Source: Rhodospirillaceae bacterium (lineage in GTDB: Bacteria; Pseudomonadota; Alphaproteobacteria; TMED109). From it: a DNA stretch of 64,000 bases. The notes below the pieces were generated by a model. It ran no database searches. It had not been told where the DNA came from and saw only the letters and a list, made by a program, of their open reading frames with translations. Both the position numbers and the translations under genes were made by a program. The stretch spans positions 1 to 64,000 of the forward strand of contig CACMQH010000001.1 of assembly GCA_902615805.1 (NCBI GenBank), written 5' to 3'. This document shows positions 53,618 to 63,424 of the stretch, in pieces. Numbering within the stretch: the first letter of the stretch is position 1; each line of letters begins with the position of its first letter.

Positions 53618-54925
53618 ATGACAAAGAATAAATTTTATAAAGAAAAAGATAAAAATATGCATTTAGCTGTAATAGGTGCAGGAGTCTCAGGATTAACTAT
53701 AGCTATGCATTTATCTAAAAAACATAAAGTAACACTTTATGAAGCCAATAATTACTTGGGTGGTCATGCTTTAACATTGAATGAAAAAATACTCGTAAAT
53801 AATAAATTAACTGATATTAAATTTGATGTAGGATTCTTGGTTTATAATAATAAAAATTATCCATTATTCAGTGAGCTACTTAATTTACTTAAAGTAAAAA
53901 GTATTGATAGTAGTATGTCATTTAGTGTTGCAAATAAAGTAAGTAATTTTGAATATGGAAGCACAGGAGTTTTGTCTTTAACAAATAACCTAAAAAACAT
54001 TGTTAAAATAAGATTTTGGATATTACTTAAAGAGATAAGTAGATTTTACAAAATAACAAACAATATTTTAAGTTCAAAAAATATAGATTTTGATAAAACA
54101 GTTAATATTTTTTTGCAGGAGCACAAATTTAAAGATGTATTTATAATTGAACATTTTTTGCCTATGTGTGGTGCAATCTGGTCTGTCCCGTTTAAGAAAG
54201 TTTTAAAGATGCCTATTAAAACAATTTTAATGTTTTTTAAAAATCATGGTCTATTAAGTTTTTTTGGAAAACCTCAATGGAAGACAATACTAAATGGAAG
54301 TAAAAATTATGTCAATGCTATTAAAAAAACAATAAATGGTAATATTTATCTTAACGAAAAAGTAGTAAAAGTAGTAAGAAAAAAAAATAATATAATAATT
54401 AAATCACAGAATATGACAAAAGAGTTTGATAAGGTTATTTTTGCTACCCATGCTGATGATACAATGAAACTAATAGAAAGTCCTTCTGCTTTGGAAAAAG
54501 CAATATTAACTAAATGTAAATATGAGACAAATCAAATTATAGTTCATCAGGATTATAAGCTGATGCCAACAAATAAAAAAGTATGGTCATCATGGAATGT
54601 AATAAATCATAAACAGAATAATAATCATAACATATGCGTTACTTATTGGATTAATAAACTTCAAAGAATAAAGTCTGATAAACCTATTTTAGTTACTCTA
54701 AACCCACAGCTCAATAGACTCCCATCTAAACAAGAAATTATAAAAAAGTTATCATTTAGACACCCAGTCCTAGATAAAAATTATCTAAAAGCACAAAATG
54801 AAATAAATTCTATTCAAGGTAAAAATAATACCTACTTTACTGGAGCTTGGTTAGGCTATGGCTTTCATGAAGATGGTGTCAAATCTTCATCAGTAATAGC
54901 AAAAAAGCTCAACCTGATAAAATAA
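53618..54925 (+). CDS. FAD-dependent amine-oxidase-like oxidoreductase of the CFA/DUF1365 cluster
   Basis: 435-residue flavoprotein with the dinucleotide motif LAVIGAGVSGLTIAMHLS and YEANNYLGGHALT, KFDVGFLVYNNKNYP near residue 70, and a C-terminal AWLGYGFHEDGVKSS flavin segment. This is the COG2907-type family that travels with DUF1365 and cyclopropane-synthase-like genes and is controlled by RpoE-ChrR in photosynthetic relatives; members have been linked to desaturation in furan fatty-acid synthesis. Start: ATG 53618, or ATG 53657 directly before the Rossmann motif. It leads a four-gene plus-strand operon. Confidence 0.9.
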   Translation: MTKNKFYKEKDKNMHLAVIGAGVSGLTIAMHLSKKHKVTLYEANNYLGGHALTLNEKILVNNKLTDIKFDVGFLVYNNKNYPLFSELLNLLKVKSIDSSMSFSVANKVSNFEYGSTGVLSLTNNLKNIVKIRFWILLKEISRFYKITNNILSSKNIDFDKTVNIFLQEHKFKDVFIIEHFLPMCGAIWSVPFKKVLKMPIKTILMFFKNHGLLSFFGKPQWKTILNGSKNYVNAIKKTINGNIYLNEKVVKVVRKKNNIIIKSQNMTKEFDKVIFATHADDTMKLIESPSALEKAILTKCKYETNQIIVHQDYKLMPTNKKVWSSWNVINHKQNNNHNICVTYWINKLQRIKSDKPILVTLNPQLNRLPSKQEIIKKLSFRHPVLDKNYLKAQNEINSIQGKNNTYFTGAWLGYGFHEDGVKSSSVIAKKLNLIK

Positions 54926-54928
54926 ACT

Positions 54929-55714
54929 ATGCAAAACATATATAATACAAAAAACTGTATTTATTTAGGCAATGTCTTTCATGCTAGGTTAAGACCTAAA
55001 CAACATAAATTAAATTATAATGTATTTTATTTGAATATTAACCTTAGGGAAATAAAAAATAAAAGCTCTATGCGTTTATTATCATTTAATAAGTTTAATC
55101 TATTTTCCTTCTATGATAAAGACCATGGACCTAAGAATTGCAAAAATATTGATATTTGGATAAGAACCCTAATAAAAAAGAATAATATAAAAGCAAAAAT
55201 TAAAAATATATACTTATTAAGTTTTCCTAGGGTTTTAGGCTATGTATTTAACCCATTATCTGTTTACTCATGCTTAGATAAAAATAATAAAATAATTTTA
55301 CAAATTTATGAGGTTCATAATACTTTTAATCAAAGATATTTTTATTTAGTAAAAAATTCTTTTGATAAAAAAAATCATGATAAAGTTTATAAAAAAAAGT
55401 TTCATGTATCACCTTTTATGAGCATGAGTGGAAAATACAGGTTCAAGAGCTATTTAAATAATGAAAAAATTAAATTAATTGTAGAATACTTTTCTAAAAC
55501 AGAGAACTTTATCGCATCATTTAGCGGTGTAGAAAAAAAACTAACTAATTATAATTTATTTGTCTATTTTCTTAAAATTCCTTTCATGACAATCAAAATA
55601 ATCGTAGGAATCCACTTTGAAGCTATTATATTATATTTAAAAGGTGTAAAGTTTTTTAAGTGTCCAAATCCCAACAAGATCAATTTTGTAAAATATATTA
55701 GGAACAAAAAATGA
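54929..55714 (+). CDS. DUF1365 family protein
   Basis: 261-residue protein of the DUF1365 family. Characteristic parts are the opening YLGNVFHARLRPKQHKLNY, RVLGYVFNPLSVYSCLD near residue 100, EVHNTFNQRYFYLV, and KKFHVSPFMSMSGKYRF near 155. Biochemical function is not established; it always accompanies the FAD oxidoreductase and CFA-like methyltransferase and is thought to act in fatty-acid modification. It starts three bases after the oxidoreductase and overlaps the methyltransferase by four bases. Confidence 0.93.
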   Translation: MQNIYNTKNCIYLGNVFHARLRPKQHKLNYNVFYLNINLREIKNKSSMRLLSFNKFNLFSFYDKDHGPKNCKNIDIWIRTLIKKNNIKAKIKNIYLLSFPRVLGYVFNPLSVYSCLDKNNKIILQIYEVHNTFNQRYFYLVKNSFDKKNHDKVYKKKFHVSPFMSMSGKYRFKSYLNNEKIKLIVEYFSKTENFIASFSGVEKKLTNYNLFVYFLKIPFMTIKIIVGIHFEAIILYLKGVKFFKCPNPNKINFVKYIRNKK

Positions 55715-56880
55715 ATTTAATATACAAAATATTTTTTGATAAATTAAATAAAAATAATAGCCTTGGGTCTAAAGGCTCTATTGAAGTTTATCTAAGAGAT
55801 AATTTAAAATTTCTAATAGGTCGTAAAAAAAGTAATATAAAAGTATTTATAAAAAAAAAGAAGGTAATTTTAGGATTAATCTTTTATGGATTGCCCTATT
55901 TAGGTTTAAGTTATTCTAAAGGTTATTGGACTACAAATAATTTAAAGAAACTATTACAGCTTGGCTTGCTTAATAAAAATATATTTAGAGCTAACACTTC
56001 TTTTAACATTTTCTCAAAATTTTATTTTTATTTTATTAACGTATTTGAAAAAAATACTATTTCAAAAAGTAAAAAACAAATATCCTTCCATTACGATCTA
56101 GGAAATAATTTTTATAAGCTTTGGTTAGATAGATCTATGACCTACTCTAGTGCTATTTTTACTAAATCTAATAATTTAATCAATGCTCAAAAAGATAAAT
56201 ATCAATCAATAACTAAAATAGGTAAAATAAATGAAAAACACAACATTCTTGAGATAGGCTGTGGTTGGGGTGGGTTTATTAAATATGTGGAAAAAAATGT
56301 AGGATCAAATGTAACCGGTATTACATTATCGAAAGAGCAGTTTGAATATATTAACAGTCTAAGTTTAAATGGTTCTACAGTTCAACTAAAAGACTATAGA
56401 AATATTAAACAACAGTTTGACAGAATAGTGTCAATAGAAATGTTTGAGGCAGTAGGCAGAAGAAGCTGGGGCATCTATTTTAATAAGTTAAGAGAGTGTA
56501 TTACTGATAAGGGAAAAATAATATTGCAAATAATAACTATATCTGAGGAAAATTATAATTACTATGCAAATAGAAAAGACTTTATTCAAAAATACATTTT
56601 CCCTGGTGGGATGCTACCTACTAAAAGCTTACTTAAAAATTTAGCAAAAAATAATAATTTAACATTTAAAGAGCACCTGAGTTTTGGTAAAGATTATGCT
56701 AAAACCCTTTCTATCTGGAGAAATAACTTTCTATTAAATTGGAGTAAAATTAAAAAGCTTGGTTATGATGAAAATTTTAAGAGATTGTGGGAATATTATC
56801 TAACATATTGTGAAGTAGGTTTTACAAATGGATCAATAGATGTTAGCCAATTTTTACTAGAGAAAAAAAAGAACATATAA
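55711..56880 (+). CDS. Cyclopropane-fatty-acyl-phospholipid synthase family methyltransferase
   Basis: 389-residue SAM-dependent enzyme acting on membrane phospholipid acyl chains. The catalytic part shows SFHYDLGNNFYKLWLDRSMTYSSAIF (quoted as HYDLGNNFYKLWLD and MTYSSAIF), the SAM motif NILEIGCGWGGFIKY near residue 180, TGITLSKEQFEY, SIEMFEAVG near 245 and YIFPGGMLPT. Family products include cyclopropane or methyl-branched chains; in this cluster a furan- or methyl-fatty-acid route is possible. It overlaps its neighbours by four bases upstream and one downstream. Confidence 0.93.
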   Translation: MNLIYKIFFDKLNKNNSLGSKGSIEVYLRDNLKFLIGRKKSNIKVFIKKKKVILGLIFYGLPYLGLSYSKGYWTTNNLKKLLQLGLLNKNIFRANTSFNIFSKFYFYFINVFEKNTISKSKKQISFHYDLGNNFYKLWLDRSMTYSSAIFTKSNNLINAQKDKYQSITKIGKINEKHNILEIGCGWGGFIKYVEKNVGSNVTGITLSKEQFEYINSLSLNGSTVQLKDYRNIKQQFDRIVSIEMFEAVGRRSWGIYFNKLRECITDKGKIILQIITISEENYNYYANRKDFIQKYIFPGGMLPTKSLLKNLAKNNNLTFKEHLSFGKDYAKTLSIWRNNFLLNWSKIKKLGYDENFKRLWEYYLTYCEVGFTNGSIDVSQFLLEKKKNI

Positions 56881-57338
56881 TGACTAAAAATAATGCAATT
56901 AAAAAATTTGAATTTGAAAAGTTTTTCACTGGCAAAGTAGTAGCTACTGGGTATATGTGTTTTTTTTATCCTAAGACGAGAAAAAAAAAGTTAAAAGTAG
57001 TATTTAAAGGTGTTTTCGAAAATAAAAAATTAAAGCTAATAGAAGAATATTTTGAAGATAATTTGAAAACCATAAGAGAATGGCAATTTGAAAAAGTAGA
57101 TAAAAATAAATTTTTTGGAAATGGTAAAAATATAGTTAATCCTTTTGAGCTTCATATCAAAGACAACTTTTTAGAAATGAGTTATAAATTTAAAACACAA
57201 TTTAAAAATTTTGATTTTAATGTTAATGTAAAAGATCATATGTACGTAATTAATAACAATACACTTATCAATTATACAAAAATATCTAAATTTCTAATTC
57301 CCATAGCTGAAACCCAATTGCTTTATAAAAAGCTATAA
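56880..57338 (+). CDS. DUF3833 family protein without a signal peptide
   Basis: 152 residues matching DUF3833: FEKFFTGKVVATGYMCFFYP, IREWQFEKVDKNKFFGNG, and the end segment VKDHMYVINNNTLINYTKISKFLIP. The family is of unknown function and is part of this lipid-modification gene set. Many members are lipoproteins, but this one begins MTKNNAIKKFEFEKFF with no hydrophobic leader, so it would stay in the cytoplasm. Its ATG overlaps the methyltransferase stop. It converges on and overlaps the SDR gene by six bases. Confidence 0.82.
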   Translation: MTKNNAIKKFEFEKFFTGKVVATGYMCFFYPKTRKKKLKVVFKGVFENKKLKLIEEYFEDNLKTIREWQFEKVDKNKFFGNGKNIVNPFELHIKDNFLEMSYKFKTQFKNFDFNVNVKDHMYVINNNTLINYTKISKFLIPIAETQLLYKKL

Positions 57339-58091
57339 CCTTTTTATTAATAGCTGAGTTAAACTAAAATACACGCTATTTGGTAATACTCTAAGTATCT
57401 TCATAATAAAACAAAATAACCATGGACAATTTATTTCAAACTTTTTTGAAAAAACAATTTTTTTATATATAATATCTGCTGCTTTTTCTGCAGGTATTAT
57501 CATAGGCATTTTAAATTTGTTCTTATCTGTTAAAGGAGTTTTAACAAATCCAGGATTAATTACTCTAATTGCTATTCCTAAATTTTTACATTGATTGTAA
57601 ATTGATTCAGCAAATGTAGTTATAGCTGACTTTGATGAACAGTAAGCAGCAGCATAAGGTAACCCCCTATAACCTGCAACAGAAGACATAAAAATAACTT
57701 GTGATTTATTTTTTTTTTTCAGGAAGGGTAGTAATGCATACAAACAATTTAGAGTACCAAAAAAGTTAATTTTAAATATTTGCTCAGTTTCTTCTATAGA
57801 AAAAATATTTTTTGAATTAGGGTTATTTGTGCCAGCATTTAATAAAACAATATCAGGAATACCATATTTTTTGATAGTTTTATTCATTTGAGAAAATACA
57901 GTTTTTTTATTACTTATATCCATTTTTACTGGAATAATTGTATTTAAATTAATACATTCTTTATCTAGCTTTTTTAAGAGATCCAACCTTCTTGCAGAGG
58001 CTAATACCTTCCACCCATTATTTGCAAACTTTATAGACAATGCTTTTCCTATACCGGAAGAAGCACCAGTAACAAATATTATTTTTTTCAT
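57333..58091 (-). CDS. Short-chain dehydrogenase of the RpoE-ChrR cluster
   Basis: 252-residue classical SDR: VTGASSGIGKALSIKFAN cofactor motif, ASARRLDLLKKL, VLLNAGTNNP, FMSSVAGYRGLPYAAAYCSSKSAI with Ser/Tyr/Lys (quoted as LPYAAAYCSSKSAI) and VINPGFVKTPLTD. The C-terminal hydrophobic tail (LFCFIMKILRVLP) suggests membrane association. An SDR of this type commonly sits beside the DUF1365/CFA genes. It is downstream of chrR by three bases, in an rpoE-chrR-SDR operon facing the lipid genes. Confidence 0.9.
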   Translation of the reverse strand: MKKIIFVTGASSGIGKALSIKFANNGWKVLASARRLDLLKKLDKECINLNTIIPVKMDISNKKTVFSQMNKTIKKYGIPDIVLLNAGTNNPNSKNIFSIEETEQIFKINFFGTLNCLYALLPFLKKKNKSQVIFMSSVAGYRGLPYAAAYCSSKSAITTFAESIYNQCKNLGIAIRVINPGFVKTPLTDKNKFKMPMIIPAEKAADIIYKKIVFSKKFEINCPWLFCFIMKILRVLPNSVYFSLTQLLIKRL

Positions 58092-58094
58092 TTT

Positions 58095-58775
58095 CTAGAA
58101 TTTAGTAAGGTTTAGTATGGATCCTAAGAGTCCTTTAAATTGTAGAGAACCAGAATAAACAACTAAACAAATACAGCCTGAAGAAGCTGATACAGGACTA
58201 TGTACTTCGTCGCAACTAGCTACTACTAAATCTCCTTTATTGTAGTCTCCCTTTTCGTCACAATATCCTCCATAAAGAACTAATGTAGCTTCTAGAGCTT
58301 CGTGACCATGCTTTGGCATAGATTTGTTTGCTGGTATTTCAAGCAACTTACCGCTTATATTTCTATCTTGGAATTTTATATCTTTGTATTTAATATTGTT
58401 AATTGAAGATTTCCAATTTTTTGTGTCAAAATCTGGTCCTAGATATCCTGAAAGAGTTGATGGTATCTTAATATCTGAGTGACTAAGGTTACTTTTAATA
58501 GAATGAGAAGTATAGTTAGCCTGATATTGTTCTTGATCTAAACCATCTACTCTTTCTAAGATGTTTTTCCATAAGTCCTTACTTACACTCAATTCCTTAT
58601 GATTAGATAAGTAATAACCACCTAATGTCTCATACTTTTTTAATTCTTCTTTACATTCTGCACAATAAGCAATGTGACAAGAAATTATTAAAGATTCTGC
58701 TTCCGTAGTATTGCCCATTGAATATTTCAAAAGCATATCTGAACTAGGGTGCAAATTGATTTCTTTTGGCAACAT
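58095..58775 (-). CDS. chrR: ChrR-type zinc anti-sigma factor
   Basis: 226 residues in two domains. The N-terminal zinc anti-sigma domain has HIAYCAEC (HxxxCxxC) near residue 33, which binds zinc and holds the sigma factor. The C-terminal cupin domain (about 125-226) shows MPKHGHEALEATLVLYGG and the following DEVHSPV, candidate metal ligands. In Rhodobacter ChrR, singlet oxygen triggers release of RpoE and needs the cupin for full response. It overlaps the rpoE stop by one base (TAATG), giving equal production with the sigma factor. Confidence 0.94.
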   Translation of the reverse strand: MLPKEINLHPSSDMLLKYSMGNTTEAESLIISCHIAYCAECKEELKKYETLGGYYLSNHKELSVSKDLWKNILERVDGLDQEQYQANYTSHSIKSNLSHSDIKIPSTLSGYLGPDFDTKNWKSSINNIKYKDIKFQDRNISGKLLEIPANKSMPKHGHEALEATLVLYGGYCDEKGDYNKGDLVVASCDEVHSPVSASSGCICLVVYSGSLQFKGLLGSILNLTKF

Positions 58776-59398
58776 TAATTTACCTCCACTAGGTGTCTCA
58801 TTTTAGTTAGTGCAAGTCTTATTCTAGACTTAACTGTACCAAGAGGTATTTTTAATTCTGCTGATATATCCGCATGAGTTTTATTATAAAAATATGATAA
58901 TTTCAAAAGTTTACTTTGTTCTTCAGGTAAATTTGACATATATTTTTTTAAACTGTTTGAAACCTGAGCGGTGAAAATTTCTTTTTCTTGAGTAGAATCT
59001 ACTGGAATTTCAAGCCCTTCATCACTTTCAGATAAATAATGTCTTTTTTCTTTTCTAATCTTATCTATCCTCTTATTTCTTGCAATTGTGTAAATCCAAG
59101 TACTTACAGAAGATTTATTACTATCATATGTAGAAGATTTAGTCCAAACTGCAATCATTACCTCTTGAATTACTTCTTCTGCTTGGGTATCAGTAGAACC
59201 TGCTTTTACTAAAAAACTTTTTAATCTTGGTGCAAAATATTTAAAAATAGTATTAAATGCAAGTTTATCTTGGTTTTTTCCTATTAATTCAACACATAAT
59301 GTTAGGTCATCATTAGTGTCAGCACTAAAAGTATCTGCTTTAATATTTCTAGATTTCATAGCAGTGTTTGAGTTAAAAGATTTTAAATTTAATTGCAT
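58775..59398 (-). CDS. rpoE: ECF RNA polymerase sigma factor RpoE (singlet-oxygen type)
   Basis: 207-residue ECF sigma factor paired with ChrR. Region 2 is seen in FKYFAPRLKSFLVKAGST and VIQEVMIAVWTKSSTYDS, then STWIYTIARNKRIDKIRKEKR; region 4 is LPEEQSKLLKLSYFYNKTHADISAELKIPLGTVKSRIRLAL (quoted as KIPLGTVKSRIRLAL), a helix-turn-helix reading the -35. The match to Rhodobacter RpoE around APRLKSFL is close. ATG 59398 is used here; ATG 59359 is also possible. No TGATC-like -35 was found upstream by eye. Confidence 0.94.
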   Translation of the reverse strand: MQLNLKSFNSNTAMKSRNIKADTFSADTNDDLTLCVELIGKNQDKLAFNTIFKYFAPRLKSFLVKAGSTDTQAEEVIQEVMIAVWTKSSTYDSNKSSVSTWIYTIARNKRIDKIRKEKRHYLSESDEGLEIPVDSTQEKEIFTAQVSNSLKKYMSNLPEEQSKLLKLSYFYNKTHADISAELKIPLGTVKSRIRLALTKMRHLVEVN

Positions 59399-59559: not shown

Positions 59560-60309
59560 TCACTTAATTAAAGACAAATTTTTGGATCTCTCATATTTGG
59601 TATCAATCCTGTAAATCTCATCTAGTTCTTCATCCATAACATACCTATTAAGGAATTCCATAACTTTTATTAAATCATTAAATATCGTTTCTCTTTCAAT
59701 CTTCTCTAATTCATAGTTTTTTAAATAAACTTTCCTTATAAAAGAACTATCATGAATAGGAGGACCAATAACTACATCCAAGTTATCAAAATACTTTACA
59801 AATTCATCTAAATGCTTTCTATTATTATGAATTTTATTAGGAATAATAACTATGTGAGGATGTATTTTTTGAAATCTTTCTTTAATCTTATCTAGTTTTT
59901 TTACAAACTCCAATGTTGGAGGTAACTCTGCCATAGTATTAGAAACAGGAACAATTATAGCATGAGATTTAGTAAATAATTCAATTCCTTCTTGACCAGG
60001 TCTAGCTGGAGTATCTATTACCAAAACATTACCTTGCTTCATTCTTGTGTTTTCCATTAATTGACTTAACAGAATTAAATTTAATTTATCATATTCATAT
60101 GAAATAGGATAATGGCTACAAGGCACATTCTTACAAATTCTTTGCAATAAACTTACCGAGCTACCTTGCTTGTCAGCATCTATTAGTTGGACCATTTCAT
60201 ATTTTTTAGACCATTCTAGCATTGCAGTAATTAAACAACTTAAAGTACTTTTACCTACACCTCCCTTAGGATTAGCAAAAGTTAAAATTTTTCCTCGAGT
60301 TGTCTCCAT
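59560..60309 (-). CDS. ParA/MinD-family ATPase (orphan)
   Basis: 249-residue Walker-type ATPase of the ParA family: deviant Walker A FANPKGGVGKSTLSCLI near residue 13, QLIDADKQGSSVSLLQ (A' motif) near 43, VLVIDTPARPGQEG (Walker B) near 96. These proteins form DNA- or membrane-bound gradients that position cargo. No ParB gene or parS-like cluster is nearby, so it is not the chromosome-partition ParA; its neighbour coiled-coil gene is the likely partner. A strong AGGGGAGGA Shine-Dalgarno lies in the end of that gene, two bases separating them. Confidence 0.9.
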   Translation of the reverse strand: METTRGKILTFANPKGGVGKSTLSCLITAMLEWSKKYEMVQLIDADKQGSSVSLLQRICKNVPCSHYPISYEYDKLNLILLSQLMENTRMKQGNVLVIDTPARPGQEGIELFTKSHAIIVPVSNTMAELPPTLEFVKKLDKIKERFQKIHPHIVIIPNKIHNNRKHLDEFVKYFDNLDVVIGPPIHDSSFIRKVYLKNYELEKIERETIFNDLIKVMEFLNRYVMDEELDEIYRIDTKYERSKNLSLIK

Positions 60310-60311
60310 TT

Positions 60312-60776
60312 CTATTCCTCCCCTTTAATATTATTTATTAAAGCAATACTTTGCTCAAAAAAATTAATATTACTTTTTAAATCACTAATATCTTTCTCAT
60401 AAGAAGCTTTAATAGACATAATATTATTTTTTACTTTTTCTAACTCTTCATCTATTAGATTAATTTTTTTAGAATAATTATCTCTTTGATTAGTCAATGC
60501 TTCAATATTTTTTAATAAAGGTAACAATTCCTTTTTAGCAACAATTGTGACGTCGTTTTTTTTATTTTTGTTATAATCTTTGGTACCTTTGATTTCCTTT
60601 TTTAACTTCATTCTTTTTTTAATTTCTTCGGCTAAAATGCCAAAATTTTTGTCTAAAGAAAAATCCTCATCAAAATTATTTGATACTTCCTTTTTAGATT
60701 GTTCATTGGTCAAGACACTTTTGCTATTCTTCCATGAACCATTTCTTCTAAGTACTTTTATTACCGAATCATCCAT
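60312..60776 (-). CDS. Coiled-coil protein, putative ParA partner
   Basis: 154 residues, not recognised. The N-terminal third is basic (SVIKVLRRNGSWKNSKSV), the middle is lysine-rich and probably disordered (about 55-75), and residues about 80-150 form a continuous heptad-like helix (LLKNIEALTNQRDNYSKKI, then LIDEELEKVKNNIMSI). The design, a short basic N-terminus plus coiled coil beside an orphan ParA, resembles cargo adaptors that stimulate ParA-like ATPases (inference). Start: ATG at 60776 with AAGG just upstream. Confidence 0.72.
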   Translation of the reverse strand: MDDSVIKVLRRNGSWKNSKSVLTNEQSKKEVSNNFDEDFSLDKNFGILAEEIKKRMKLKKEIKGTKDYNKNKKNDVTIVAKKELLPLLKNIEALTNQRDNYSKKINLIDEELEKVKNNIMSIKASYEKDISDLKSNINFFEQSIALINNIKGEE

Positions 60777-60916: not shown

Positions 60917-62314
60917 TTAAAGACCTAACGTATCATAGGATAATGCTATTTTTTCTAGTGCTATTGACATAGCACTAGTTCTTAAATCTTTAACTTTATT
61001 TTTAGCATGCATTCTATAAGACATAGCTATATAAGCTGACCTCATAGTATCATCTAACCCTGATCTTACTAAATCTATCTCATCAGAACCTTTAATAATA
61101 TTTTCTTTATTACTTAAATTTAATTTTCTACCAGTAATTTCTTCTACAGAGGATATCAAGTTTAAAATCTTATTTTCTTCTCCTCTTTTATGAAGTCTTC
61201 CAAATCTTATACGAGATAAATTTTTAACCCATTCAAAATATGAAACAGTTACTCCTCCTGCATTAGCATAAAGATCAGGAATTATTACTTTTTCTTTATT
61301 AAGTATTTGATCTGCTTCATAAGTAATTGGTCCATTTGCCGCTTCTACTATTAGATTTGCTTTAATTTTTTTAGCATTATCTTTATTTATTACTCCTTCT
61401 AAAGCAGCTGGTATTAAAATATCACAGTTTTCAGTTAATAAATTTTCTCCTGAACTTTTATACCCCTTATACTTCTTTACACTTCCTGTTTTTAAAATAT
61501 GTTTTTTTAGTTTTTCTATATCTACGCCTTTTTTATTATAGACTGCACCATCTCTTTCTATAACTCCTATAACTTTTGCTCCATCTTCCTCAGATAAAAA
61601 CTTGGCAGCATGATAACCTACGTTACCTAAACCTTGCACAATTATTGTTTTACCCTCAAGTGTGCCTTGCAATTTTGCTAATTTCATATCTTTTTTATGC
61701 CTAAAAAACTCTCTTATAGCATATTGAACGCCTCTTCCTGTTGCTTCAGTTCTTCCTCTAATGCCATGCTTGTTAATTGGTTTACCTGTTACGCAAGCAA
61801 AAGCATTTATATCAACTGGATTTAGCCTTCTATATTCGTCAGCAATCCAGGCCATTTCTCTTTCTCCTGTTCCCATATCTGGAGCTGGTACATTTTGCGA
61901 GGGATTTATCATATCTCTTTTTATAAGTTCTTGTGAGAACCTTCTAGTTATTCTTTCTAAGTCAAACTTGTTGTATGAGTTTGGATCAATTATTAAGGCT
62001 CCTTTTGACCCACCAAAAGGTATATCCACTAACGCACACTTATAAGTCATTAATGCTGCAAGTGCTTCAACTTCAGATTGGTCTGCCAGAAGAGAAAATC
62101 TAATCCCTCCTTTTACAGGTTCAAGATGATCAGAATGAACACACCTATAACCAGTAAATGTTTTAATTTGATTATTAATCCTTACTCCAAAATTTACTTT
62201 ATAAGTAGCATTAGGAGATTTTATTTGATTGGACAATGAAGCAGATAATTTTAATACTTTAGCTGCATTATCAAATACCTTATCAACTGATTCCAAAAAT
62301 TCTTTTCCAGACAC
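60917..62314 (-). CDS. Glu/Leu/Phe/Val dehydrogenase (probable glutamate dehydrogenase)
   Basis: 465-residue hexameric-type amino-acid dehydrogenase linking 2-oxoglutarate and ammonium with glutamate. Substrate part: PVKGGIRFSLLADQSEVEALAALMTYKCALVDIPFGGSKGAL (quoted as PVKGGIRFS, MTYKCALVDIPFGGSKG), with catalytic lysine and PAPDMGTGEREMAWIADEY; cofactor motif IIVQGLGNVGYHAAKFL near 222, and LIVEAANGPIT. Glutamate is likeliest, leucine-type substrates cannot be excluded. The start is GTG at 62314 with GAGAGG seven bases upstream. Divergent from the cNMP-domain gene across 44 bases that carry TATAAT on both strands. Confidence 0.93.
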   Translation of the reverse strand: MSGKEFLESVDKVFDNAAKVLKLSASLSNQIKSPNATYKVNFGVRINNQIKTFTGYRCVHSDHLEPVKGGIRFSLLADQSEVEALAALMTYKCALVDIPFGGSKGALIIDPNSYNKFDLERITRRFSQELIKRDMINPSQNVPAPDMGTGEREMAWIADEYRRLNPVDINAFACVTGKPINKHGIRGRTEATGRGVQYAIREFFRHKKDMKLAKLQGTLEGKTIIVQGLGNVGYHAAKFLSEEDGAKVIGVIERDGAVYNKKGVDIEKLKKHILKTGSVKKYKGYKSSGENLLTENCDILIPAALEGVINKDNAKKIKANLIVEAANGPITYEADQILNKEKVIIPDLYANAGGVTVSYFEWVKNLSRIRFGRLHKRGEENKILNLISSVEEITGRKLNLSNKENIIKGSDEIDLVRSGLDDTMRSAYIAMSYRMHAKNKVKDLRTSAMSIALEKIALSYDTLGL

Positions 62315-62358: not shown

Positions 62359-62820
62359 ATGATAAACAGTAATAAAAAAACTTGGGAACCTGACTCAATT
62401 ATTTATAATTTGGGGGATGAACCAAAATGTGCTTTTTTAATTGTTACAGGAATAGTCGAGTTTTATTCTAAAAATAATGTCTTATTAGGTAGCGCAGGTC
62501 AAACTGAAGTCTTTGGAGAGATTAGTTGCTATTTAAATAAAAAACATTCAGTAACAGCAAAAGCTAAAACGCATCTGGCGGCAAAAATAATACCTAAAAA
62601 TGAATTTTCAAAAATAATCAAAAATGCGCATCCTGTTATAATGGGTATGCTTAGAAGTACTTATCATAGATTAGCAGAATCAAATATTCAAAGAGAGTAT
62701 TCTCAAGAAGAAATTGATAAATATACACTTATGTATAAAAATAGTATTGAAAATAAAGAAGAAATTAAAAATAAGATTGACACTATTAAAGAAAAATTAG
62801 ATAAAAATACGAACACTTAA
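62359..62820 (+). CDS. Stand-alone cyclic-nucleotide-binding-domain protein with coiled tail
   Basis: 153 residues: an N-terminal Crp/PKA-type jelly roll (about 1-100; WEPDSIIYNLGDEPKCAFLI, VTGIVEFYSK, FGEISCYLNKKHSVTAKAKT) and a charged helical C-terminus (about 112-150) without helix-turn-helix. The phosphate-binding cassette keeps the FGE glutamate but has histidine where CRP has the cNMP phosphate-binding arginine, so ligand binding may be lost or changed. It is not a DNA-binding regulator on this evidence. One base separates it from the next coiled-coil gene, implying a pair. Confidence 0.78.
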   Translation: MINSNKKTWEPDSIIYNLGDEPKCAFLIVTGIVEFYSKNNVLLGSAGQTEVFGEISCYLNKKHSVTAKAKTHLAAKIIPKNEFSKIIKNAHPVIMGMLRSTYHRLAESNIQREYSQEEIDKYTLMYKNSIENKEEIKNKIDTIKEKLDKNTNT

Positions 62821-62821
62821 T

Positions 62822-63424
62822 ATGAGTAGTAAAAAAATGTTTAGTAAATTTGATGAGTTAGAAGATATAGTTAGAGAAAATACTATACTAATAAAAAAAA
62901 ATAGAGCATTAGTAAGTATAAATCATGATAATCTTCACAATGCCTATAGAGAATCCTATGACGTAACTAGAGAATTATTATTGTTACAACTTGAAAGAGC
63001 TAGAAAATTCATAGTCGAGTCTCAAAATAAAAAAGATGTTTTTGAATATTTAAAAAAAAGAATAGAAATTAATAAAAAAACTGCACAAGTTACGGAAAAA
63101 ATTATTTCCTCAAATGAAATAATGATGGAAGCAGTAGAAGATTCAAAAAAAGTTAATGAAGAATTAGTTAAATTTTTAGAAACCTCATTGAAAGAACAAA
63201 AGAAAAATAAACCAGCAAAAAATGAATTTGTATTTAGTGACGAGGAAATAAACTCTCTTTTTAATATGCAAAAGGAAAACATAGTAAATATATTTAGAAA
63301 TAATTCTAGAATTACACATAATAGAAAAGTAATACAAGATAAAATAGTCGAAGTAGATATTATATCAAAGAAAGCTCAGGACTTAGTAGCAAACTTTCAC
63401 GAGCTTCTTTACAAAGACGATTAA
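62822..63424 (+). CDS. Coiled-coil protein of unknown function
   Basis: 200 residues, predicted almost wholly helical, not recognised. Charged heptad-like stretches occupy most of the length (for example FDELEDIVRENTILIKKNRA, LLLLQLERARKFIVESQ and VEDSKKVNEELVKFLETS), with a lysine-rich break near residue 128 (EQKKNKPAKNE). No signal peptide, membrane helix, zinc motif or catalytic motif. It follows the cNMP-domain protein with one base between, so they probably act together, perhaps as a structural or scaffold pair. The stop shares a TTAA with the convergent ligase gene. Confidence 0.72.
   Translation: MSSKKMFSKFDELEDIVRENTILIKKNRALVSINHDNLHNAYRESYDVTRELLLLQLERARKFIVESQNKKDVFEYLKKRIEINKKTAQVTEKIISSNEIMMEAVEDSKKVNEELVKFLETSLKEQKKNKPAKNEFVFSDEEINSLFNMQKENIVNIFRNNSRITHNRKVIQDKIVEVDIISKKAQDLVANFHELLYKDD

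Follow-up and report, generated by a model that had tools for sequence, protein, structure and literature searches.

The cargos positioned by ParA/MinD ATPases are diverse, and for many orphan proteins of the superfamily no partner is known because the partners have almost no sequence in common. The locus described here, part of a 64,000-nucleotide stretch of alphaproteobacterial DNA (hereafter the window), raises two questions: does a ParA-type gene form a positioning pair with the small gene preceding it and, if so, what would the pair position? What gives the partner away in this case is its coupling to parA together with a basic N-terminus that is strictly conserved. As the genome is small and shows little trace of the usual cargos, only a few candidates are left, and two small genes can be transferred to a laboratory host. 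We consider it probable that the genes constitute a two-gene ParA/adaptor positioning system, a new member of a known ParA-based class, and that its cargo probably lies outside the familiar set. Among the papers listed by a literature search, in a library with few subscription articles and no bioRxiv preprints, no title or opening of an abstract describes this pair.

The ParA-type ATPase

The initial annotation had located both open reading frames correctly; their strand, which it did not give, is minus, with the adaptor gene first and parA second. The parA gene (59560–60309, minus strand) encodes a deviant Walker A ATPase of 249 amino acids, and the proposed ParA-family identity was borne out by its orthologues, its dN/dS and three Pfam models whose cut-offs were exceeded: AAA_31 (38.4 bits vs. 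27), CbiA (37.5 vs. 25.4) and PF10609. The deviant Walker A motif KGGVGKST occupies residues 15–22 (60244–60267, minus strand); seven of its eight residues are invariant across a six-row ParA alignment, G19 being an X (unresolved base) in one row, and the motifs LIDADKQGS and V(I/V)DTPA are retained beside it. The KGGxGK[S/T] signature together with the Pfam scores places the protein in the ParA/MinD superfamily. It stays under the curated cut-off of every NCBIfam model that it matched, among them the best named family, ParA_partition (NF041546; 53.4 bits vs. 180), and the minD_bact equivalog (13.5 vs. 212.9). Against PF09140 (MipZ; cut-off 20.7) it scored 17.1 bits, and the orthologue from genome G005 fell just above the line at 21.2.

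The most amphipathic 11-mer in the last 30 residues has a moment of 0.66 and a mean hydrophobicity of -0.52; these values, which stand without a MinD control, may favor association with the nucleoid over the membrane. Sequence searches of solved structures returned weak ParA-family matches. The AlphaFold2 model was poor (mean pLDDT 48.7), and the Foldseek matches listed for it, nitrogenase-type iron proteins and their relatives, were discarded because the model was too poor. Neither ParA nor the adaptor matched any PADLOC defence model at E 0.01.

The adaptor protein

The adaptor gene (60312–60776, minus strand) encodes a putative ATPase-activating partner of 154 amino acids (154–169 among relatives) with a pI of 9.2, as judged from the open reading frame, alignment, AlphaFold2 model and dN/dS. 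Its most conserved part is the N-terminal peptide MDDSVIKVLRRNGSW (residues 1–15; codons at 60732–60776, minus strand), which contains K7, R10 and R11 and the sole tryptophan, W15. All 15 columns are identical in the six sequences from three genera, as compared with 33 of the other 155 columns when one sequence per genus is used and 30 of 155 when all six are; for the former comparison the hypergeometric probability is 9e-10, a value that ignores phylogeny. Six of the 15 codons vary synonymously among the six sequences, hence it is the protein and not the DNA that is conserved here. The block LDxxFxxLAxEIKKRM is the second conserved region.

The AlphaFold2 model built from the six sequences (pTM 0.35) predicts helices at residues 4–11, 41–64 and 73–151, with pLDDT below 50 at 19–41 and 63–72 and block means of 91–98 over residues 81–150. 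The basic N-terminus, disordered middle and long coiled coil attributed to this protein at the outset thus agree with the alignment and, for the latter two features, with the predicted model. Two details count against it as a basic activating partner: acidic D2-D3 precede the basic residues, and the G005 adaptor has an overall pI of 6.65. Pfam and NCBIfam yielded sub-threshold matches only, no DNA-binding family of Pfam matched at E 0.1, and searches of solved structures by sequence were unspecific, returning mostly helical proteins.

Coupling and distribution of the two genes

The two genes are 2 nt apart in the window and in the relative nearest to it, whereas they overlap by 4 nt (ATGA) in the four other relatives, in keeping with the translational linkage that had been proposed. 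Within the last codons of the adaptor gene is a Shine-Dalgarno-like GGGGAGG (60317–60323, minus strand), spaced 7 nt from the start codon (ATG) of parA; among the six genomes, this gene end carries GGAGG in four, AGGAG in G017 and neither in G003. Purifying selection acts on both genes, with dN/dS values against the nearest relative of 0.043 for ParA and 0.209 for the adaptor. Promoter-like sites (25, vs. 18.7 in shuffles, sd 4.4) showed no clear excess over chance, and a terminator scan found none.

The family and the order comprise the same 28 genomes, the window's own (G000) included. ParA orthologues were found in seven of them (G000, G003, G004, G005, G007, G017 and G019) and are 73–97% identical to the window ParA; that of G019, 90% identical over the available piece, is cut by the end of a 4,985-base contig and was left out of the adaptor pairing count. 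The adaptor occurs in six of the 28 genomes, never alone and each time directly upstream of ParA. The co-occurrence check suggested in the initial annotation was therefore passed in 6/6 genomes where both genes could be assessed, and the pair is confirmed as real and not a chance arrangement. It is confined to three genera of one alphaproteobacterial family, and we take the relatives that carry it to be marine. A class-wide search with the adaptor at E 1e-5 retrieved one of 385 genomes, the window's own. The ParA-bearing genomes are 97% (G005) and 57–79% (the other six) complete; G016, G018 and G020 (54–61% complete) lacked the pair as well as the glutamate dehydrogenase (GDH) and coiled-coil protein described below.

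Comparison with known positioning systems

Published activating partners (AAPs) of ParA/MinD ATPases act through a basic N-terminus: PMC10241942 describes a charged N-terminus as general among them, and according to PMC12204374 K7 of the McdB N-terminal helix is critical. What marks an AAP in the portions of PMC7993993 and PMC10241942 at hand, a conserved positively charged N-terminal peptide ahead of a separate domain, is found in the adaptor (K7, R10, R11; the peptide also has D2 and D3). The layout matches that of published activating partners and supports the proposed likeness to systems in which a ParA works with a small adaptor.

One parallel in overall plan is PomX/PomZ, which positions the division site in Myxococcus xanthus. 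According to the available text of PMC7993993, PomX has conserved charged residues 1–22 with K13/R15, an Ala/Pro-rich stretch and a coiled coil. The adaptor likewise has a conserved charged N-terminal peptide, a likely unstructured stretch, a long C-terminal coiled coil and a ParA/MinD partner; PomX has 404 residues as against 154–169, and the likeness is one of architecture and not a sequence comparison. McdB, in the part of PMC12204374 available, resembles the adaptor in being small and in having an N-terminal helix that includes K7 and disordered stretches, whereas its C-terminal tryptophan, invariant according to the excerpt of PMC11321042, has no counterpart in the adaptor. With PpfA/TlpT and ParC/ParP, which serve chemoreceptor arrays, the pair shares an orphan chromosomal ParA outside parAB, as far as the accessible portion of PMC9178275 describes them.

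On the model of PomX and McdB, the ATP-bound ParA dimer would spread on the nucleoid, and the conserved basic N-terminal helix of the adaptor (K7, R10, R11) would dock at the dimer and trigger ATP hydrolysis and release of ParA. The flexible linker would carry the predicted helical module (41–64) and the long C-terminal coiled coil (73–151); this part of the protein may self-associate, hold the cargo, or both, and a diffusion ratchet acting along the nucleoid would then transport the cargo and set its spacing. We retain the first reading of a cargo-positioning pair because of the pairing, the presence of parAB elsewhere in the genome and an adaptor architecture like that of published partners.

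Other ParA/MinD proteins and the division site

The absence of ParB near the pair, claimed at the outset, holds: the sole ParB_N match of the genome lies on another contig (C5), where a 296-aa ParB adjoins a 259-aa ParA beside genes that by eye resemble rsmG and mnmG. The chromosomal ParA/ParB system, whose ATPase is of the same superfamily, is encoded separately, and the possibility that the pair is a parAB remnant was rejected since the genome has its own parAB elsewhere. In a tree of 25 ParA-type proteins, the chromosomal ParA, a second orphan ParA, Mrp, the pair's ParA and a related ParA from another family (f109) are all separate. We take f109 to be SAR116-like, from its gene content and a single-contig genome of 2,753,527 bases.

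For a census of P-loop proteins we used G005 (all 31 contigs, 1,695,481 bases, 97% complete), which carries the pair. A six-frame scan for KGGxGK[S/T], which is blind to other P-loop forms, identified four proteins in the assembled 97%: an Mrp/ApbC-like protein, the chromosomal ParA, the pair's ParA and the second orphan ParA (224 aa). None reached the MinD cut-off (the pair's ParA was scored as the window copy), and MipZ was not the best Pfam model of any; FtsZ is present. PF09140 was nevertheless exceeded by the chromosomal ParA (40.7), Mrp (27.9) and the pair's ParA (21.2), hence this model fails to tell the families apart, and it is not proven that G005 lacks MipZ. According to a review (PMC4460556), conservation of MipZ extends to every alphaproteobacterium that lacks MinCD, and a lack of both would therefore be unusual. 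If the census is right, this clade lacks MinCD as well as MipZ and has two orphan ParAs as candidate replacements. Within the family, the second of these (about 224 aa) lies beside a gamma-glutamyltransferase-like gene (L195:11527-12201; also L008, L011, L016 and L018).

A narrower form of the positioning hypothesis would have the pair position or time the division septum in a PomX/PomZ-like manner, filling in for MinCD and MipZ. The census, the FtsZ of G005 and the predicted PomX-like architecture of the adaptor point in this direction, and this role, if true, would explain how midcell is located in an alphaproteobacterium that has no clear Min or MipZ. We nonetheless regard it as unlikely. 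PF09140 draws no clean line, being passed weakly by three of the proteins; a MinD or MipZ could lie in the missing 3% of G005 or have a P-loop that escapes the scan; the pair has no gene link to ftsZ; and the second orphan ParA has just as good a claim. A replacement may even be needless, as Agrobacterium tumefaciens divides without major defects after removal of Min (PMC5900048, in the portion available). The more ambitious proposal, that in a streamlined, presumably marine alphaproteobacterial clade MinCD and MipZ have both given way to the pair as a small division-site positioner of the PomX/PomZ type, is likewise improbable.

Searches for the usual cargos

Returning to the general reading of a ParA/adaptor positioning system, the window carries no carboxysome, flagellar or chemotaxis genes near the pair, as had been noted initially and as we found on reading the lists of open reading frames by eye. 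Pattern-based motif searches were extended to 1,796 open reading frames of at least 60 aa in G005, contig C31 being treated separately. No RuBisCO or BMC shell-protein motif was present among them, a difference from McdA/McdB, nor was the chemoreceptor signaling hairpin, a difference from PpfA/TlpT; both results come from searches without a positive control. Flagellin-type, CheA-type, GGDEF, FlhA and FliI-type motifs were likewise absent from this set, and the four motifs sought on C31 gave no match. Two FlgE-type matches were obtained. Two PhaC-type lipase-box matches resembled other enzymes by eye, and the MotA pattern, with 73 matches, was too loose.

A type IV pilus, Tad or type II secretion cargo had been suggested by two SAR116-like genomes in which pilin- and PilT-like genes, identified by eye, lie close to the related ParA. 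In a search of 31 genomes, PF00437 (the T2SSE-family ATPase) did not exceed its cut-off in any of the seven that carry the pair's ParA (57–97% complete), and among three SAR116-like genomes tested it did so in G238 only. This cargo was rejected on that basis; against the rejection, six of the seven genomes are 57–79% complete, and G018, of the same genus and without a detected pair, has two matches.

The genes around the pair

Upstream of the pair lies the GDH gene (465 aa; 60917–62314, minus strand), followed divergently by a gene for a small cyclic-nucleotide-binding-domain (cNMP) protein (62359–62820, plus strand; PF00027 45.5 bits vs. a cut-off of 27.5) and one for a 200-aa helical/coiled-coil protein (62822–63424, plus strand). 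Within this two-gene stretch (62359–63424), the cNMP part is similar to a PADLOC model for the sensor module of TIR effectors, and no TIR family matched. Downstream of parA are genes for an ECF sigma factor (58775–59398, minus strand) and a ChrR-type cupin anti-sigma factor (58095–58775, minus strand). By eye, the region 53618–59398 joins this pair to amine-oxidase-like, DUF1365-like, cyclopropane-fatty-acid-synthase-like and SDR-like genes, a layout that we take to be like that of a singlet-oxygen regulon.

Within the family, GDH and the coiled-coil protein were found only in the three genera that have the pair. The latter is highly conserved and is found in seven of the 28 family genomes and in one of the 385 class genomes, again the window's own; in G017 its gene is split into two open reading frames of 98 and 100 aa (L046:12637-13240), by a frameshift or an assembly error. 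G006 carries both genes without ParA and adaptor, but there only 79 bases separate the GDH end from the start of the contig; we do not count it as an exception to the pairing, since its sequence stops short of where the pair would lie. No GDH or coiled-coil match came from G019, in which the contig breaks off within parA.

A search of the relatives for a consistent third partner had been advised. It did yield co-occurring genes, but it did not single out a partner, because synteny is general here across the three genera: over about 20 kb the window shares its gene order with one genome from each of the other two genera and with a second genome of its own genus (L044–L046). Adjacency therefore weighs little, and no functional linkage can be read from it. 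The clade distribution of the cNMP and coiled-coil genes is the same as that of the pair and inseparable from this synteny, and they were set aside as third partners. Kept as a rival is the proposal, another narrowing of the positioning hypothesis, that GDH or the cNMP-domain and coiled-coil proteins are the cargo or its receptor within a five-gene positioning or signaling unit. The restriction of GDH, the coiled-coil protein and the pair to the same genera speaks for it, as does the rarity of the coiled-coil protein in the class; the shared gene order weakens this argument, and the related ParA of SAR116-like genomes has other neighbors. We hold the proposal to be a long shot.

A related ParA subfamily and the origin of the pair

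A ParA profile search of the 385 class genomes at 1e-15 recovered, besides the window's own genome, three others, all of f109. Within f109 a related ParA was present in 45 of 61 genomes at 1e-20 and in 24 of the 28 good genomes. These proteins are 25–29% identical to the window ParA, are its closest relatives found outside the family, and group with it in the 25-protein tree at 86/88 support, which is moderate and short of the program's star.

In contrast to the window locus, no adaptor match was found at 30 f109 ParA loci. At 22 of these, the gene upstream on the same strand encodes a single-pass membrane protein that has a helical tail and a motif like FxFFKR; ten of the 22 had themselves supplied rows to the 11-row profile used in the search and were thus bound to match. 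The other eight loci include L107, where the upstream sequence is just 309 bases long, and L097, whose genome has the gene further off (L143). The helical tail reads IEqEMlxxRxLYxxGhixxdvYVxETRxLY (L093–L122, e.g. L104:431-898). The membrane protein had no Pfam match (two members searched) and no NCBIfam match (one member), and its candidacy as an adaptor homologue was dropped at an hhalign probability of 0.2 over one column. With no adaptor match at the 30 loci and the adaptor found in only one of the 385 class genomes, the wider ParA subfamily does not depend on it, which counts against the positioning reading. In one complete f109 genome (G404), ParA is reduced to a 97-aa C-terminal piece without a P-loop, downstream of an intact membrane protein gene (L245:4952-5828); the subfamily is therefore dispensable there.

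The recurrent membrane protein would suit a ParA-like regulator that positions nothing, much as BcsQ-type proteins serve one machine, and so would the fact that no cargo is known for the pair. The predicted positioning-partner architecture of the adaptor argues against such a role, which we judge quite improbable. Least likely of all is a plasmid- or phage-derived partition system settled on the chromosome, with the adaptor as centromere-binding protein: ParA_partition is indeed the best named family (below its cut-off) and PHROG 164 ParA scored 68.5 bits, but the adaptor matches no DNA-binding family at the threshold given above and has no match in plasmids, plasmid ParAs reach at most 33% identity among the matches listed apart from one short 48% stretch, and scans of viral contigs with two short peptide patterns per protein returned no relative of either. 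A mobile origin was rejected on the grounds that the plasmid search gave no adaptor match, the plasmid and phage searches no close ParA, and the viral-contig scans neither. Also against a partition system, the genes run adaptor first, and the pair occupies the same chromosomal place in three genera.
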